Positions 18,701 through 63,643 of a DNA stretch of 64,000 bases are shown piece by piece. The DNA comes from Deuterostichococcus epilithicus (taxonomy: Eukaryota > Chlorophyta > Trebouxiophyceae > Prasiolales > Stichococcaceae). Location of the stretch: NCBI GenBank assembly GCA_033439295.1, contig JAVTLE010000013.1, positions 1,612,001 to 1,676,000 of the forward strand, read 5' to 3'. A program made the position numbers and the translations under genes. A model generated the notes under the pieces. The model was given only the letters and a program-made list of their open reading frames with translations. It had not been told where the DNA came from and ran no database searches. Position 1 is the first letter of the stretch. Every line of letters starts with the position of its first letter.

Positions 18701-21313
18701 ATCTCACCCGCTCCGCGCACGGCACCTTCGGCGACATCCTGCAGCTGCTGACCTTCCACACCGACCCGGAGGTGCGCCGCTCAGCCTTTCAATCTACGTT
18801 TTCCATCTGTGTTCACCTTCCAGCCTCCTGTGACATCCACGTTTATGAAGACCACACAAATTTGACAGCACTGAGTCCCCTGTGTGGGCTTCATGGAGAC
18901 TAACCTGCCGCTGACTGCCAAGTCCTTCTTCTAACGCTACTCATCATCTTTGCAGGTGCGCACGAAGGCGATGGCGCTGCTGCGGCAGTACCCCATGTCG
19001 GCGTGCACGCGACCGGTGGTGCGCAGCAGCGGCAGCCTGGCGGGCGCCGGCTCTCCCGCCTCGGGCAACTTTTCCGGTGGCGGCCGCTTCTCCTCGGCAG
19101 CCTCCTCCTCCACCGGCTTCCACTGGTCTGGCGGCGGCGGCGGGCCCGGTGGCCCGCGGCCACGGCCGCNCTNGNGCCTGCACAAGCGCGGCCCCGGCCG
19201 CAGCACAGGCATCTATGGCGGCAATGGCGGCGGCAGCGGCGCCTTTGGCAGCGGCTGGCCTGGCGGCGGATGCCCACTGCCGTCCGGCGGCCTGGACGGC
19301 AGCGGCTTTGGCNCGCTCCCGCCGCCGCCAGCGGGCGGCGCCTTTGGCAGCTCCGGGGACCATCTCGGCGCCCGCCGCCGCCGCACCCCCACCGGCACGC
19401 CATCTGCGCAGCGCCCGGCGCCGTCGCCGGNAGCGGGCGGCGCGTTGGCGGGGCGCTGCCCCGCGCTGGCTGCCGGCGCAGCGGGCCTCGCCGCGGGGCC
19501 CCCACCGCCGTCGACGCCGGGCTTCTCCACGCCCATTGGTCTGCCGCCGTTGGCGTCCGGCGTCGCCTCAGCTGGGTACGACCCCGGCAGCTGGGGCGTC
19601 GCGGCGTCTCCGGCCGCCTGGGGAGTGGCGGCCTCGCCGGCGCCCGGCGCCCTGGCGCACTGGTCCGACGTCACGCTGCGGTCCACGCCCAGCTTTGGCG
19701 GCGGCTCAACAGCACCGGGGGCTCTGGCGGATGATGCGCCGCAGCTGCCGCCGGGCATCGGCGCCACGCCCGGCAGGGCGCACACGGTGCCGCCGCCGGC
19801 GCCGCCGCCGCTTGCTGGGCCGGCTGACGGGCCGCTGCACCGGCTGGCGGGCCTCGCCTCGCCGCCACGGTCGGGCGACCTGCCACCAGGCTTTGTGCGT
19901 CCCTCAATCTGTTGTTCTTGATTGGTGTCCCGTGTTGTTGCATCTCGGTGGTTTCACACCTCTCCGATGCGCCTCTGCAAAAGGTGCACTCTGGTTTGTT
20001 TTAGGATCGCTCATCACGATCTGCTGGGTGGAATTTTGATGGAAGCTGACGATTTCCAGTTGATTCCCCTGCGCAGGCCCGCTCGCCCGGCGAGATTGAG
20101 GATGTGCAGATGTCGGACGTGTCGGACGGCGAGATCGTCGACGAGGCGGTGCTTGCCAAGGGCGAGCCTCCAGCGGCGGTGCCCAACGGCGCCGGCGCCG
20201 CGCCGCCGGCGCAGAATGGCAGCGCCGCCGCGAGGCCGCCGTCAGGCAGCCCCGTGTCGCCGTGTCGCGACGAAAGATTCTTCGATGTCGACCCGCACGA
20301 CCCAGGTGCTCGTCTGTGGCAGCAGCAAATGTTGCGGCAGCAAATGTTGCGGCAGCCGTCAGCACCCAGTGGTACACCTGGCGCCGCCGGCGTGTGCTCT
20401 TTGACAGGTCGCACGGATTCACAGGAGCTACAGGGCTACATCCCGAGGATCAGTTCTTGCTCAGCAGGCTGCTACATTGAGGCCAGCATGAAGCTGCACC
20501 CAGCTCATGAGTCAGGCAGCGCATCGTGGGCAGTCGGCAGCGCGGCACTGGAGGCGGCGGGGACCGACTGGAAGGCGCCACGTGACAGAAGCGCCTTGTC
20601 AGGCCTGTCTCTCTTGACTTTACCTTGAATTGTAAGCTGCAGTCTGATTGCAATTCCCATTGTCTCCCCTGCAGCCGGCAGCGCGGCGCTGGAGGCGGCG
20701 GCGGACGACTGGGAGGCGCCAGGGGCAGAGTTCGAGGCGTACGTGGGGGAAGTGGTGCGGGTGCGGCTGGGGCGGCACCTGCTGGCGCCGCCCGGCCCCG
20801 CTCGCGTCGGCCTGCCCGACGCGCGCGCCCTGTTCGCCAAGGTGTCCGGGGAGATCCTGGACAAGGAGCGTCAGGTGCGTCCACAACCACATGCGGCTGG
20901 CTGCCACCATGCACCGCTGTGCTGTGCCACAACAATGAGTGCGACCAGTCCGGTGGTCTGGAGCGAATGCTGCCTGCCATTGATTGCGCAAGCTGGAGAA
21001 GGCGGAAGCCATACTCGCGGCGTCCAGCAGGGCCGCAGCGTCCTGGCGCCTGAGCGCAGCAAAACACGGGCGCCGGACGCTTGCCAACACTCCAGGGCTG
21101 TGAGACGCGCTCAACCCCGCTGCCAAAGCTGTCCCAGTGGTGCGGCGCGAGCGGGCGTGATCCATGTCGCCTGCACAGGCGTATGCGGAGCGGGAGCGGG
21201 TGGGCGCGCACAAGCTGATCGAGCGCCGCAAGCTGGAGCTCAAGATCAAAGAGTTCATCCGCGACAGCATCCGCCGCCTGCATGCGCAGCGCGCCGCCGC
21301 CGCCGCGCAGTAG
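12786..21313 (+). CDS. Histone H3 lysine-36 methyltransferase, SET2/SETD2 (ASHH2/SDG8) type
   Basis: A very long multi-exon gene. ATG at 12786 (MAELAKARSQTANG) leads into a CW zinc finger (WAQCDRCNKWRRIP, then YCDQNPNAAFSNCEVPQEL near 13190). An AWS domain follows (CQCRRPTDGG, GPDCLNRVLNIECVP, GYCPCEETCSNQMF). The SET domain reads AKGFGLFAAQDLEEGQFIIQ, YFMNVGNGEVIDACRM and RFINHSCEPNC, then GEELTFDYNFERYG; the NHSCEPN and FDYNF motifs make SAM binding and catalysis likely. The post-SET Cys cluster is MKCLCQAKGCRGFVGG near 15070. Beyond come Ala/Pro-rich linkers, a TFIIS-N/LW-like helical region (about 18.1-19.0 kb), a long Gly/Pro/Ala low-complexity exon (18956-19891), and a C-terminal SRI-like region (FEAYVGEVVRVRLG, FAKVSGEILDKERQ), ending at 21313. 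The family methylates H3K36 behind elongating RNA polymerase II. Five ambiguous bases fall in the low-complexity exon. Confidence 0.9.
15371..15508 (+). repeat. Tandem duplication, 2 x 69 bp, in a SET2 intron
   Basis: Units 15371-15439 and 15440-15508 both begin cctcgacgcaacggtctcgc and end ccgctcact, with a few mismatches. They lie between the post-SET exon and the exon starting near 15532. The length is a multiple of three, but translation resembles nothing in the family, so I read them as intronic. Confidence 0.8.
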
Positions 21314-34774: not shown

Positions 34775-37700
34775 TCAAGCTTCATCTGCCGGTATGAGTG
34801 TACCGTCCGGCTCGAACTCTGCATTCTCCAAGTCAGGCAGAGGGAACCGCAGAATTGCCGCCACACCCGTCAGCTGGTCCAGCTGCTCCCCCGTCGAGTG
34901 CATGCCTGCAGGTATGCAGCGTGCACAACTTGACGTTCAGTCACACCCCAGTATCGTGCAGGATCCATGCCTGATGAACATTGACAAGCTTCAACAGACT
35001 GCAGTCCGCCACACAGGGGAGATCTGCCACGCGGACAGGGTCCGTAAAGCCCCTAGCCTCGGCAAGACACACCATCCGTGCCGAGTGCTGAAGTGCCAAA
35101 CAGACACCATGATACACAATGAACACCTTGTGCACCCCGAGACCCAGCTGCAGTGTGTGCAGTGTGCACCTTACACCACGACGCAGCGCCGCTGGAGTGC
35201 AGCACGCAGCTGTGATGCATAATATACAGTGCGCATCTGAAGCACGACCGCAGCACACTGTGCTGTGCACAACCGTGCACCTGAAAACACGACCGCATTG
35301 CCGCCGCCCGCCTCCACCTCCTCCACCAGCGAGGCATACTTTAGCCGATCGATGACGTTGTTGATGCGGAACAGCGAGTCGGTGATGAGCAGCGTTTGGA
35401 TGGCGCCCAGCTCGTGCGCTGCGTTGATGTGCCCTGCGAAGCAATGGCAGGTGCTCGGACCGATACTGGTGTAGAACACCATTCGAAGCGCCTGACCTGT
35501 GGCAAGTTGGGCTACTCGCTCCGTGTCATCAGCTTATGCCGTCGCACACCTCCACCTGCCAGAACAACAATCCAATTGGTTCCGCCTCGCCTCCACAGTT
35601 CTCATCAGCACAAGCTCCGTGGTGGGGGGCGCGCTCAAGTTGGACGACGGCATTCGATTGGCTGACTTCCGTGCTCTCCTGTCGCCCTCGATTCACCTCG
35701 TCTTCGAGTTCGCACCTGGCCCATAAAAGGCGCGCGCAGGGTCGGAGGACAACATATCGAAGAAGTCCTGCAGCACCTGCACCTCCCTTGCCGCCTTGGT
35801 GTCCTGTGCATGCAGAGACACACGACACAATTCGCTGGAGACTCTGTGAACTGTGGACCGGCCGGAACACCGGCGACCTGCACCTTTGAGGGCTCGTTGC
35901 ACTGGCGCACCAGGCACCGCTGGGACAGTCGCACCTTGATCTGCGCTGCGAGGCCGGGCGCGGCGAACAGCTCCTTCAGCGAGTGCTTGTAGGCCGACGA
36001 CACCGGAAACGTGAGGATGTTGCGCTTGTGCGTCTGGAAGGCCCTGCCAGTTTCGCAGCAGTTCTGTCAGTCACATGCTGCCTGGACGCCACCAGCGGCA
36101 GAGTGTCAACCTCGTCCAAAAGAGCAAAGCGATCGGTCATTATGTGTTTCAATGGCCATGTCTGCATCGAAGTGTTCACAAACTCGTCGGGACACAGCTT
36201 CGTGAGCGCACTTGAGCTCCCGCTTCATGGCTTCCGCATTCAGGTACTCCAGGAACTTGTCCTTGGCAAAGCCCGGGCCCCCGATGACCAGGCACTTGAC
36301 AATCTCCCAGTCCACATGTCGCACCGTCGCCAGCAGCACCTGCATACGATTCAGGCGGCGGATGACTCGACGCAAGGGACGAAAGCATGTTTCAACAAGC
36401 CCTCAAACAGTCTTCCTCGAATGGCAAACCATGTGTCCTCAAGAGAAGCGCTGCACTGCGTTTCGTGCTGGCAAGCGCACACACAGGCAGGGACGGGAAG
36501 CTGAGCCGACAAGCCAGCTAAGCTACGGCGGCTCTGGATGCACCAACAAGCAGTCCCGACGGGGCACCTTGTCGAAGAAGCGGTCGAGGGCCTTGTCATA
36601 GCCGGCGGAGGCGGCGCCGCGCTTGCGTGGGATGTTCCCCTCCACTTTGGCGGCCACCACCGTGATGTTTGCGCCCACCAGGCAAACGTTCGCCAGCCCC
36701 TCCTGCGCACACCGGCGAGAACTGTTCAGTCAGAGCGCTGGCGCCTCAACGTTGCGCGTGCGGCCAGCGGCAGCCTTGGCCCCGGCGGCCACGGCGGCGC
36801 TGCTGGGCATTGCTGAGCGGCCCTGCCGTGGGCGCCAGCGACTGATGAAGGGGTGTGGCCAGGAGCCACCACCATGTGCCAGCATTGCTCCAGCTGGGTT
36901 CAGACTGGCCACAACTCAGGCCTCCATGCTGATGCCCGGACTGCTGGTCACAAGGCCGCACGAGGCCCCAAAGTCTCGGCGCTGCACACGGCTGGGGCAA
37001 CGGCTCTCTCGCCTATACAGGCAAAGTGTGCTCACCGTGCGGAGCACAACATCCACTGTACATGTAAAAGTTTGCTCACTGTGATGAGCACCACGGCCAG
37101 GTCTGCGGACACCGCCGGGTCACAGGCCTCCTGGATGCGCGCCAGGTCCAGGCCGTCCCAGGCGCCCTTGTGCAGCTGGAAGGGACGGTGCGGCTCCAGC
37201 TGCAGCGTGTGGTGCGCGCCCAGCTTAACGTGCTCGTTCTCTGTCAGGTTGCGCCCGCTCAACCGGATCTCCTGGCCTGCGCAGCCAGCACGTTCTCGTG
37301 CATCGTTCCCTGGTTCGGCTAGCTTTGTCAAGCGAAGTTGGTCCGCTTGGTTGGCAGTTCGGGTCCTTCAAGCGTCCTTCAAAGGTACGTCAAAGGAGGA
37401 GCCATCAGTGGGGGCACAGAGGTCCGTCAGCAGGAACTCGGCGCAGTGCAGCCGCCGGCCTGTGCGCACCCTCCGGGTCGAAGTCGATGCCGTCGACGCT
37501 GATGCTGAGCTTGAGCTTGACCTTTTCGCTCTCCTGCCCGGCGCCGCTCTCGCGCTGCACCTTGCGGAAGGTGGTCGCAGTGACGGTGTCGCCCTCCCGC
37601 ACCAGGTTATACACATGCCACAGGTCCTCGCCTGCGCGCCAGCAAAGTGCCATCAATGTTTACCGCCGTAGAATCTCACACCAAAAGTCCGTTGGTTTGC

Positions 37701-37912
37701 TATTGAAACTCGCACGTGAGTATCCAGACGCCTGAGGGCATGTGCACCAAGCTGTCGTGGGGGAGCCAGAGGCTATGCAGTTCAGAACGAGTGGATCTGC
37801 ACATGGGGTGACGCTTCAGATGGGAGCGTGATCCAAGCCGCCCACCTTCCTCCGGGATGAGCTTGACAGTGCCCTCCTCGCCGTTGCGGGCCTTGGGCCC
37901 AACCTGCTTCAT
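34775..37912 (-). CDS. PELO: Pelota/Dom34, ribosome rescue factor
   Basis: ATG at 37912 gives [20 protein letters not shown], then [19 protein letters not shown] after a phase-1 splice, a near-perfect Pelota start. Next come [33 protein letters not shown] (near 37230), [20 protein letters not shown] (near 36590), [16 protein letters not shown] (near 36260), [13 protein letters not shown] (near 35730), then a splice to [20 protein letters not shown] (near 35400). The end is [20 protein letters not shown] followed by FPLPDLE, stopping at 34775. The eRF1-like N, central and C domains are all present and the GGQ hydrolysis motif is absent, as expected. With Hbs1 it splits stalled ribosomes in no-go decay. 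Its ATG lies only 43 bases after the stop of the upstream small gene. Confidence 0.92.
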
Positions 37913-37955
37913 TGCGCGCTGCTGCTTCTGCCGTTCAGCGCCCTCCCGTCGCAGC

Positions 37956-38332
37956 TCAGCTGTCCTTCGGCATCAGCAGGATGATGGCCCAATACAAGAA
38001 GGCTGCGAAGACCAGGCCCACAGCAACGAAGGAGCACAGCGTCTGTACGATTCCGACGCTGGCTGAATTACGCTGCCTCCGGCTGCGCGGCGTGCCACTG
38101 CTCTGCTGCCGGGACAGCCGCTGCACCTCGTGCTGCTCGTGGTCGCCCAGCACCTTCCGTCTGTCGGACACCCGTGTTGCAGCCGCGTTTTCTGCGTGGC
38201 ACAGGAACGTAACAGGCTTGGTGCATGGAGCCGCGCAGCTGCACACCCAAGACGTTGGCTTTCAGGGCTGCGATTATCAACCGGCGACGCACCTCGCCTC
38301 TGTGAGCTTCTCGTGCCGTCAGCTCGCGCCAT
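37956..38332 (-). CDS. Small C-terminally anchored membrane protein, 91 residues, unknown function
   Basis: Two exons: 38332-38293 (MARADGTRSSQRR) and 38191-37956, joined in phase 1 at GT-AG. The N-terminal two thirds are hydrophilic and basic (VSDRRKVLGDHEQHEVQRLS, SSGTPRSRRQRN). A single hydrophobic helix follows (TLCSFVAVGLVFAAFLYWAI plus ILLM), ending PKDS. The topology suggests a tail-anchored or single-pass ER/organelle protein, the kind of substrate EMC or GET would handle. I do not recognise the family. It is divergent from the BIRC6-like gene and in tandem with PELO at very close spacing. Coding support is the clean splice, the strong TM segment and synonymous-looking GC3 bias. Confidence 0.65.
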
Positions 38333-38724
38333 GTCACGCAGATGGAGTCATGCTGCTGACGCGTGCGAGCGGTGTCAGATCGCTTTCGAGATGGTCGGCT
38401 TCGTATTGTCGGATCACCGTTTCTGGCAGATGAATGACACCTGAACGGATCAGCAAAATTGCATAATGGCCGGCGTGTTTGCTTGGAGGTTGGGCTTGAA
38501 AAGGGCAGGCATGCACGGGGTATGTGTGTTCCGGAGATTTGAGTGTGCAGGCCTTCTGGCATTGGCGCTCGCACTCAGAGCCCGGCAAAATCCGTTGAAT
38601 GTGCAGAACATGCTGAGGATTTGATCGCGCTGGCGTCGGAAGCACAGCTGCCTGTAGTGTTGGGCGCCTCGTAGGACGGGCCTGAAACTGCAAAGGGCGA
38701 GCAGCAGCGCCAGCACAGACAGCC
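38333..38724. promoter_or_regulatory. Divergent promoter region, small membrane protein / BIRC6-like gene
   Basis: 392 bases between head-to-head ATGs. No motif stands out. Confidence 0.35.
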
Positions 38725-41700
38725 ATGGCGCGGCAGCTGGCCCGCGACGCCATCGAGCTCAATGTTCGGTTGGCGGACTCGGCCATCGCCATCAGCAGGG
38801 ACGAGAGCTGCATCAATGTCGCTGTCCAGCGGGATGCCCAGCGCACCAGGCTGTCCATATACTACCTGGACGCGGACAGCTATCCGCATGGGCCCTGCGT
38901 CACATCTACGGTGAGCCTGAGACCGGCACTTGCCCTCTGCGGTGTCTTGGGCATCGACGTGCTGCGATGTTCTGATGCATGCTTTGCTAATTGCCTGCTG
39001 TCCTGATCCTGCAGGAGGATGAGGCCATCGAGCCGCTGCTGCAGCCCGTCAACGCGAAGCACGAGTCGCACTCCCGGCTGGAGGACGTGCTCATGTCCGT
39101 CTGCGCCGCGCTGGGCGTAGAGTGCCCAGTGCTGAAGGCCAGCTCCGCCGACGCCCCCCAGCCAGAGGGCGCCCATGTCGCCGCGGACATGGAGGACGAC
39201 GACGAGGATGAGGAGGAGCAGGATGATGACGACGAGTCAGAGGCATACGACATGGCCGAGGACGACGACATCGAAGTCACGGTGGGCAGCGGCTCCACCC
39301 ATCCTGTCCCCAGCACTCAGGCTGATCCGAAGTCGCTGACGATGCTACAAAACTGTGGTGGGCAAGGCGTTGCGGCGGCCGGATCTGGATGTCGGAGGGT
39401 ACGTGCTCTGTGTTACGGGGGCGCCTGTGCGTGCAGACGTCTATCCTGCAGAAGCTGTCGCGCTGGACCGCGCTGGAGGAGGCGCTCATGCCCAAGGCGG
39501 CCTCAGACGACGAGGACGTCGACGAGACGGTGTATTTCGGGGTCCTTTCTCTTGGCTAAGCTGCATGTGTGAGGCTGCATGTGTTACCAATGTCCGCAAA
39601 TGCAGTGCGCCAAGATGGTTACAGAACGAATGCAGGCTGCTTGGATCGCGGCTTGCCATAGACGGCAATGTGAGATGACACATTCCTTGCGCCTCGTACG
39701 GCCTGCTGCCTCAGTGGTTCAGTTTGTATGCTTCGTTGGGCATGCTGGATCGCAATTTGCCACACCTGCGAGTGCAGCCGGTGGATGCGGCGATGACCAC
39801 GGAGGAGCGCCTGGCAGCCAAGCGGCAGCTGTTCAACCCGAAGGAGGCGTTCCAGATGCTCAGCAAAGAGCTCATGGACATCATGCGTGGCACGGTGCCC
39901 TGGCTGTCAGCAGACGCCATTGCTGACGACGTCTACAAGTGGTGCGCGCTTCAAACCCACACGCCCTCCCTGCAGACGTCCGGCTGTTTGGAAGTCTTGA
40001 CACAGACTCTCGCAACAGTTCTTCATTTGGCCCGCCTGGAATTTGCCACGACTGCTTCAAACCCTCCATCGAGGTGGGCAGTTGTGCAGCCGGGTGATAG
40101 GAACAGTTGTACCTTGGTTGCAGGGATCTGTGGATCTCTGAGGCGGACGGCAGCTCGCCCCTGGCGCAGGTGAGGGCCGCCGTACGCGCCTGACCATGGC
40201 CACAGGTCTGCCACCATGTCCAGGATGTGTTGTTGGGCTCAGTGAAAGCTGTCCTGCAGCCGAGCAACGACGTGCCAGGGCTCGAGTCCAGTGGCATGTG
40301 TACAGGATCTGCGGGAGCTGGAGCGCCGCACCGGCGACGGCCGCGTGCACCTGCAGCTGACCTTCAAGCGGGGGCTGCACCCCTTCTTCCCGTCAGCCGT
40401 GCAGGCGCGGCTGCCGTCGTGCTGTGCTGCTGCAACACGCACCGGTTCGCTGCACCTTGTATTGCATGCAAGCATACCAGTGGAAGTGCGTGCATTCACA
40501 ACATCGGCGGTCGAGACACGCAGGATGTGGATCTCAGCTGAGGGCAGACTTCGGGCTGCCATGGAAAGTCGTGCTGACAGAGACATGCATGACCGTGCTC
40601 GATGTGCCTATCCAGGTCGTGGGCCCGAGGTTTGTGGGCCCGCTGGCGGGCGCGCTGGCCAGCCACCCCATGCTGCAGCTGCAGGAGTGGGACCCCTGGC
40701 GCCCCGTCAAGGACCTCGTCCAGCACCTGAGGAACTTCCTGGAGGTGTGTCGCACCCTGCTGGTGTCGTCACGGAGGGGCTGCCATGGTTGGCAGAGGCC
40801 AGCCCGCGGCGACCACCGCGGAGCTTGCTCCTGACTGCTCCGGGCCAGCTGCACACGCAGCGCTGACTGCCCGGACCGCAGCCGACCATCTGTGCCTCGC
40901 ACGCTGCTCGAGGCATGAAGGCTGACCTGTGACGGCAAGGGACGGCGGCTGCTGCCTCGTGCGTCGCTCCGCCTTCAAACCCCTTGTGGCCTGATCCGAA
41001 CACCGACCCCGCGTGGCGGCGCCCGATGCACAGGAGGTGGGGCGCGCGGACCTGCCGGCGACGCTGGCGTCCATCTCCCGCGGCGAGGAGTGCGCATACT
41101 CGGAGGTGGAGGCGTGCCTGTCGCGCATGGAGGCACTCACTGGGGCGCGCCCCGCCTGCGCCGCTGCCTACCAGGACATGTACAGGTGGGCCCGCCAGCG
41201 TGGGGCACACGCGTAGCCAAGGTCTGTGCACGAGACCATGCGCACGCGGCATGCGAGGCGAGGCGTCCGATTGAGCTGTAGTGTGACGTGCGATCAGACA
41301 TCCATGCATGGCCCGAGCCGCGTGACGCCAGCAGGCAGGTTGAACAGCGTGCTTTGCACGCTTTCGACATCCGTGAGAGGCAAGGCTTCCTGTGCAGCAC
41401 TCGGGACGCGGGCGTCGACTCAGCACGCATTGATGCGCTCAAGCCCTCCAACAAGCGAGCCAAGACCGACTCGAAGCAGTGCGCACCCAGTCCCTTGCGT
41501 TCTTTGGCCTGAAGTTGCATGCATCAGGCTGCGAGAGTTGGTTTTCGTTTTAAACTAACTGCAGTGCCTTTTCATATGTGGGCTCCAGATGTTTATGAAG
41601 GATCCCCGACTTCTGTTATAATCCCTGCAAGGCTTTTCTTAAAAAAAAAAAAATTAATAGAAGCAGACGTATAAAATAGTAAAATAAATAATACAATTTT

Positions 41701-61800: not shown

Positions 61801-63643
61801 GGCAGCGGCTCTGACGACATGGCATTTGGAGACACTCCAGCGCGCAAACCAGCTCGGATTGATTTTACCAAATTCCGATGCTGCACAGCCCCTCAGTGCT
61901 GCACAGGGCCCACCTTGGACAGCAGCAGGCAGACGGGCAGGCCGTCTGCGGCGGCCTGCTTGAGCGCCTTTTCGGTTACCAGCATGACGCCCTCCACCGC
62001 GTCCACCACCAGCAGCACCCCGTCCGCCAGCCGCAGCCCCGCCGTCACCTCGTCGTTGAAGTTGATGTGGCCTGCCGGACGTGATATCAGGGTGACGCTT
62101 CCTCAGCATGGGGTATCCTCCTCTGGTTGCAGCTGCCTGGCTGAGACAGGCTGCTGCAGATGGCAGCGCGCCAGCCGCCGTTCAGCCAAAGTCCAGACAG
62201 AAAGGCTGACCTTCGAAATGACACCCCCTCAGATCAAACACGAGCAGCAGTCCAGCACAGTGATTCTAACTACTCCATCCCGACGGCGCACCAGGCGTGT
62301 CGACCAGGTTCATGACGTAGCTCTTGCCGGAGGAGCCCTCCATGACGAGGGACATGGGCACCATCTTGAGAGACACGCCGCGCTGCTGCTCGTCCAGCCG
62401 CGTGTCCGTGAACCGCATTGGCCGCTCGTTGGAGCGCCACTCGTGCCGCACGTCGTGCGTCTGCTCCACCAGCATGTCCATGACCTGCGGGTTTGCAGGG
62501 TTTTCTGCTCGCGAATTTGCGTTGTTTACTGTCATCTCAGCCTGCCTGCTGGCTCAATAAAACATGAAGGCAGCGGGCGTGGGCCCAAGCAACAGGCAGG
62601 GAAGCGGTCCTGTGCGCCGTAGGCTAGTGGCAACATCAAACTGGCAGGCTGGAGCAGCAGCCGAATGCCTCACGCTGCAGGAGCCCTTAGTATCCTCCCT
62701 TGATCTGTTAAACATGACGCTGCTGCCAAAGCGAGGGCGGCAGGGCAGGGTGCGCCAGAGGGAGTGCAGGGTGAGGAATGCACACCGTCGTCTTGCCGTG
62801 GTGCAGGTGGCCGACAACGGCGATGTTGCGCGTCACGTCGGCACTGGAGTTGAGCAGCCCCGTCAGGAACTCGTTGGTGTAGTTGGTGCGAAGGGCCTCC
62901 TTCTCCAGCACCTCCACCTTTTTGTGCTTGACGGGAGCGATGATGGGCACCTGCGGGAAGACGGCGATCGATGGTACGATTGTGTGGTGCACATGGATGG
63001 CATGTATGCCGCCAGTGCTAGGCCTTGCCGCCCGCGAGGCCTTGTGCCCATCCTGGATCTGCCTGCTGGCTGTACGAGACGCCAGCAGGCAGTGCCGCCA
63101 GAGCAGCGCCGTCACAAGCCTTCAGTTGCTGCTCTTCTGGAGCGGCGCTGCGGTCCCGCAGCCCCGGCTGGTCCAAGCTCCGCCGCCGGTTGACACGGGC
63201 TGGCATAATTGCCCGTGCATGACAGAGTGAGACAGCCCACACATCCTCCTCCAGAACTAGCGAAGCGGTCGTCCGTCACCAGCTGGCACGAGCCGAACGT
63301 CAGAAGAGCCACACACTCTGCTCCTGCCCAGCGTTCACATCAACAGATAGCAATTACAGCCTCAACAGCCCACCTCGAGGGGCTGGGCGTCCTCTTCCAT
63401 CACCAGTGTCTCCGTTTCGGCACCAAACGTCTCCTCCGCGGTGGGGTAATACTTCTTGTCCTCGTGCAGCACGATCTGCGTGCCGGCCTCCTCGCCGCCG
63501 TCCTCGTCCATGGCGTCGACGCCCTCCGTTGCGTCCAGTCGGGCGTTGGCGGCCGCCTCTGCGGCGTCGAGGTCGTCGTCCGGGCCCTGCTGCTCCACCT
63601 CCTCCTCCTCGTCATCCTCCTGCGGCGGCGTCGTAGGTCGCAT
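55848..63643 (-). CDS. EFTUD2: U5 snRNP GTPase EFTUD2/Snu114 (116 kDa)
   Basis: An EF-2-like spliceosomal GTPase in many exons. The N-terminal acidic region ([18 protein letters not shown]) precedes [18 protein letters not shown] and [10 protein letters not shown] domain: [16 protein letters not shown] (P-loop, near 62800), [23 protein letters not shown] (switch II), then [19 protein letters not shown] and [20 protein letters not shown]. It continues with [144 protein letters not shown] and [20 protein letters not shown]. The end is [20 protein letters not shown] and [10 protein letters not shown], with the stop near 55848. It controls U4/U6 unwinding and spliceosome disassembly with Prp8/Brr2. 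ATG 63643 is the only visible start, but the conserved YDEFGNYIG N-terminus is absent, so a first exon may lie past 63700 or outside the window. Confidence 0.93.
58599..58829 (-). repeat. Exon-end copy inside an EFTUD2 intron
   Basis: The true exon end (58801-58829, encoding ELYLDSLM) is repeated at 58599-58627 with two mismatches in 29 bases, within the following intron (58799 down to about 58234). Confidence 0.8.

Follow-up and report, generated by a model that had tools for sequence, protein, structure and literature searches.

On the minus strand of a 64,000-nt stretch of the Deuterostichococcus epilithicus genome (the window: positions 1612001-1676000 of contig C11, in a 46.8 Mb genome of 21 contigs), a predicted two-exon open reading frame of 91 codons, which we call ORF1, is followed by a nine-exon gene for Pelota (Dom34/PELO). 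The features of the locus, in window positions, are the following:

38333-38724, no strand assigned: 392-nt stretch between ORF1 and a probable divergent gene, candidate promoter region
38351-38334, minus strand: five-codon upstream ORF (uORF, MTPSA), with its stop one base before the ORF1 ATG
38332-38293, minus strand: predicted ORF1 exon 1, start context CGTGACATGG, placed by the splice model only
38292-38192, minus strand: predicted ORF1 intron, 101 nt, GTGCGT..ACGCAG, donor Pelota-like, acceptor low-scoring
38191-37956, minus strand: ORF1 exon 2, encoding the basic part and a C-terminal transmembrane segment, stop TGA at 37958-37956
37955-37913, minus strand: inter-ORF gap, 43 nt, GC 72%, without ATG
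37912-34775, minus strand: Pelota coding sequence, nine exons, 1170 nt, 389 aa, intact
37912-37846, 37631-37470, 37276-37080, 36702-36568 and 36339-36212, minus strand: Pelota exons 1-5
36043-35935, 35803-35716, 35433-35281 and 34905-34775, minus strand: Pelota exons 6-9

The ORF1 stop, the ATGs of ORF1 (38332-38330) and Pelota (37912-37910), and the 43-base spacing all lie on the minus strand where the original prediction had placed them. After splicing, 319 nt separate the two ATGs and the ORFs do not share a frame, which gives no indication of a fusion or of simple readthrough. The sequence around the gap (37880-37990) showed no unusual RNA structure when folded (z -0.76), and Rfam at gathering scores gave zero matches across the window.

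Pelota frees stalled ribosomes. By homology, the assignment of the second gene to Pelota is firm: in phmmer its 389-aa product matched Pelota in PDB 5lzw, which we take to be a mammalian complex, with E 7e-114 over residues 7-378, and Pfam found eRF1 domains 1, 2 and 3. The protein is full length, with three eRF1-like domains colinear with those of known Pelota. Scans with Pelota of viral contigs and of prokaryote genome contigs found no algal relative.

Both starts had been described as well supported. That holds for Pelota, where the two proteins align colinearly from residue 7 onward in each, making the start firm, but not for ORF1, where the start depends on a splice model with a low-scoring acceptor. 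The ORF1 coding sequence (276 nt) requires removal of the predicted intron, and 234 GT-AG or GC-AG splice combinations leave the frame open between its ATG and stop. The intron at 38292-38192 was picked among these because its donor resembles those of Pelota. On matrices built from the eight Pelota introns, a small sample, the ORF1 donor scored 7.6 (6.5-11.2 for the eight training donors), whereas the acceptor scored 1.7 (9.0-13.4 for the training acceptors). The first exon is the weak point of the gene model, and the ATG is best read as that of the best model.

The composition of ORF1 is gene-like. Scored with a codon model trained on 1694 codons of mitochondrial carriers, stop codons being excluded, its own frame reached 0.107, compared with -0.434 and -0.315 in the other sense frames and -0.214, -0.06 and -0.448 in the antisense frames. 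None of 3000 dinucleotide shuffles matched this score, and none of 3000 matched the Kyte-Doolittle hydropathy peak of 2.62, which belongs to a 19-residue window beginning at residue 68 of 91. Among the 546 stop-to-stop frames of at least 79 aa in the window, 13 had a codon score as high, the ORF1 exon-2 frame included; three others exceeded the hydropathy peak, all with negative codon scores. With its basic N-terminal part and a transmembrane segment at the C terminus, the product would probably be a basic, single-pass, tail-anchored membrane protein.

Homology searches with ORF1 gave no family at its Pfam cut-off, and we treated the matches to UL45, Ctr and Orf78 (E 0.019-0.085, all below cut-off) as noise. 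Solved proteins gave no match below E 1. A search of its own genome returned its own locus and one match with two stops (E 0.59), and no paralog; a scan of viral contigs found no credible relative. In the prokaryote genome contigs, one locus in an archaeal MAG matched residues 10-37 at 54%, which we attribute to chance because the match includes an exact search word, is antisense to a longer ORF of 247 aa and does not cover the transmembrane segment. RAMP4/SERP1 was considered and rejected: RAMP4 is absent from the ORF1 Pfam matches up to E 10, and a RAMP4 match over the cut-off was found elsewhere in the genome, on contig C14. Sec61 beta, also sought in the genome as a candidate for ORF1, was not found, which decides nothing on the identity of ORF1.

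On the other side of the candidate promoter region, a probable divergent plus-strand gene begins with an ATG at 38725 and includes an acidic stretch, judged by eye from the open frames; Pfam gave no match in the three plus-strand ORFs scanned. Far from the pair, on the minus strand of the window, 63365-63688 matches the family of EFTUD2 N-terminal domains (PF16004, E 6.3e-18), with a weak GTP_EFTU match downstream of it (E 0.0033, below the cut-off, 62711-63121), so this is probably the U5 snRNP GTPase EFTUD2/Snu114. Five single N bases occur in a G+C-rich stretch at 19170-19431.

The locus is a same-strand pair of ORFs with a short gap, in which Pelota is recognized as coding by homology and ORF1 by composition only. 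Nuclear bicistronic genes of green algae have been described by Gallaher et al. 2021 and by Duenas et al. 2024/2025 (PMC11291117/PMC11892635). The medians reported from Auxenochlorella protothecoides Iso-Seq data are 291 nt for ORF1, 1185 nt for ORF2 and 40 nt for the gap, while colinear monocistronic genes have a median same-strand spacing of 2518 nt (PMC11291117). The values here (276, 1170 and 43 nt) are near the bicistronic medians. If monocistronic gaps were exponentially distributed with a median of 2518 nt, which is our own assumption, about 1.2% of them would be 43 nt or shorter.

Two endogenous bicistronic loci reported as tested in vivo, TOM22-SDHAF3 and OST4-FAM32A (PMC11892635), served as positive controls. 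Both are present in this genome, each on one strand: TOM22 (PF04281, E 4.2e-9) lies 227 nt ahead of SDHAF3 (PF13233, E 1e-9) on contig C7, and OST4 (PF10215, E 1e-10) lies 61 nt ahead of FAM32A (PF08555, E 9.9e-9) on contig C19. FAM32A gave its match as a hand-spliced protein, a six-frame search having found nothing. Since both pairs are retained, the lineage keeps gene pairs of this kind, and the Pelota pair fits the type. The two pairs are typical of green algae and, with genes rich in introns and in G+C, point to a green-algal genome. A third control, CDC26-TTM3, was not established; the single PF10471 match (E 9.9e-4) was left unused because its ORF looks by eye like another protein.

The motif TGTAA, tried as a poly(A) signal, occurs about 113 nt beyond the Pelota stop and at 35175 in the last Pelota intron, and the minus strand from ORF1 to that intron has no TGTAA ahead of the 35175 copy. 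This pattern looked supportive of a single transcript but failed its control. From 110 rows of mitochondrial-carrier matches, 24 terminal ones were chosen by eye; four were dropped for an open frame of more than 60 aa beyond the match, and 20 were kept, some with possibly intronic stops. TGTAA was found within 300 nt of the gene end in 3/20, and TGTAA is thus of little use as an indicator here.

With Pelota beginning 43 bases behind ORF1, one shared mRNA is probable, and we regard a single nuclear bicistronic gene with a dicistronic mRNA as the best explanation of the locus, with a little better than two-thirds confidence. The transcript put forward in the original prediction thus stands as the best-supported reading, given the gap, the ORF sizes, the frame offset and the two retained loci, and it remains a candidate. 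Its accompanying argument, that 43 nt cannot house both a poly(A) site and a promoter, is incomplete, because Pelota could be driven from a promoter within ORF1 and ORF1 transcripts could be polyadenylated within Pelota. Two overlapping monocistronic genes of that kind, Pelota then having a very short 5' UTR, are compatible with the sequence. The one poly(A) motif tried is unreliable in this genome, and internal promoters are the predicted source of many alternative isoforms in Auxenochlorella (PMC12633428). We nevertheless think this arrangement unlikely, roughly a one-in-six proposition, given the agreement of the gap with the published bicistronic median (PMC11291117) and the two known bicistronic arrangements intact in the same genome.

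Less likely still, at around one chance in ten, ORF1 would be a long uORF or leader and not a protein gene, its translation serving only to repress Pelota. The lack of a family or credible homolog in the scans made and a start that comes from a splice model would suit such a leader, whereas the shuffles, none of 3000 of which equalled the codon score or the transmembrane peak, and a length of 91 codons, near the published ORF1 median (PMC11291117), argue for a protein. It seems very improbable that ORF1 and Pelota have separate mRNAs with a common first exon, joined to ORF1 exon 2 in one and directly to an acceptor within the gap in the other. Five AG dinucleotides do lie wholly within the gap, but each scores 0.0 or lower on the eight-site acceptor matrix, a small matrix on which the accepted ORF1 acceptor itself scores just 1.7, and each would put the ATG at 38332 out of frame with Pelota.

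If the pair is a bicistronic gene, a single promoter, most simply in 38333-38724, would drive one capped mRNA that loses nine introns and has its 3' end past 34775. Most ribosomes would translate ORF1; a minority, slipping past its AUG by leaky scanning, would initiate 319 nt further on, at the Pelota AUG, so that Pelota would be made at a lower level than ORF1. For bicistronic loci in Auxenochlorella, leaky scanning is the supported mechanism; reinitiation is considered rare after a long ORF (PMC5972666). The Pelota gene, the gene-like composition of ORF1, the spacing and the frames are observed here, whereas ORF1 exon 1, one shared transcript and the way in which ORF2 is initiated are inferred.

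The sequence gives a mixed picture of leaky scanning, and several features count against its being easy. The ORF1 start context has G at -3 and G at +4, and that of Pelota (CGCGCAATGA) has G at -3 and A at +4, so the ORF1 context appears to be the stronger, not the weaker, of the two; a weaker ORF1 context is a statistical trend in the published bicistronic set and not a requirement, and in this genome TOM22 and SDHAF3 have their contexts in the same order as ORF1 and Pelota. The adjacent uORF would be part of the mRNA if the 5' UTR exceeds about 20 nt. Ribosomes ending there would be in a poor position to initiate at ORF1 and might scan on as far as Pelota. Depletion of AUGs leans in favour of leaky scanning but is not significant: the 319 nt before the Pelota start contain one other ATG, which is in frame with ORF1 and opens its last five codons, against an expectation of 3.46 (P 0.14), and neither control locus is significant on its own (P 0.22 and 0.47). 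Also in favour, the gap is ATG-free at all three loci.

The identity of ORF2 makes the pair unusual in that the downstream ORF encodes a factor acting on post-termination ribosomes. PELOTA is reported to remove unrecycled ribosomes, and start-site choice on the CEBPA mRNA to depend on it (PMC11109482). Since Pelota removes such ribosomes and alters start choice on another mRNA, one can imagine a self-regulating circuit, which we offer as a long shot: some ribosomes left unrecycled after ORF1 would move over the 43 nt and begin again at the Pelota AUG, and Pelota would remove them. Were this true, plentiful Pelota would repress its own synthesis, Pelota would be made when ribosome rescue falls short, and the five-codon uORF would let more ribosomes bypass ORF1 and reach Pelota. 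The CEBPA case (PMC11109482) is parallel in that Pelota would act on unrecycled ribosomes of a message carrying an upstream ORF; it differs in that the target there is another gene, while the downstream ORF here would be Pelota's own. A ribosome-rescue factor as ORF2 would be a natural test of leaky scanning versus the use of post-termination ribosomes, which Pelota removes.

With this pair, the algal bicistronic genes gain a further candidate; automated annotation is reported to misread such genes often (PMC12633428). The words 'pelota' and 'Dom34' are absent from the main text of PMC11291117, as are 'pelota' and 'PELO' from the main text of PMC11892635. A literature search for algal bicistronic or polycistronic Pelota, with subscription papers and data sets mostly outside its scope, had no Pelota bicistron among the matches listed.

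Like the described green-algal bicistronic genes, the locus has a small ORF1 and a larger ORF2 on one strand, in different frames, with a short, ATG-free gap. In contrast to the published trend, its ORF1 start context is not weak. It shares its architecture with OST4-FAM32A and TOM22-SDHAF3, both found in this genome. OST4 and TOM22, the ORF1 products of those pairs, are small single-pass membrane proteins, as the ORF1 product here would be. The proteins are unrelated, however, and those two pairs differ from the Pelota pair in having bicistronic mRNAs and conservation documented in other algae.
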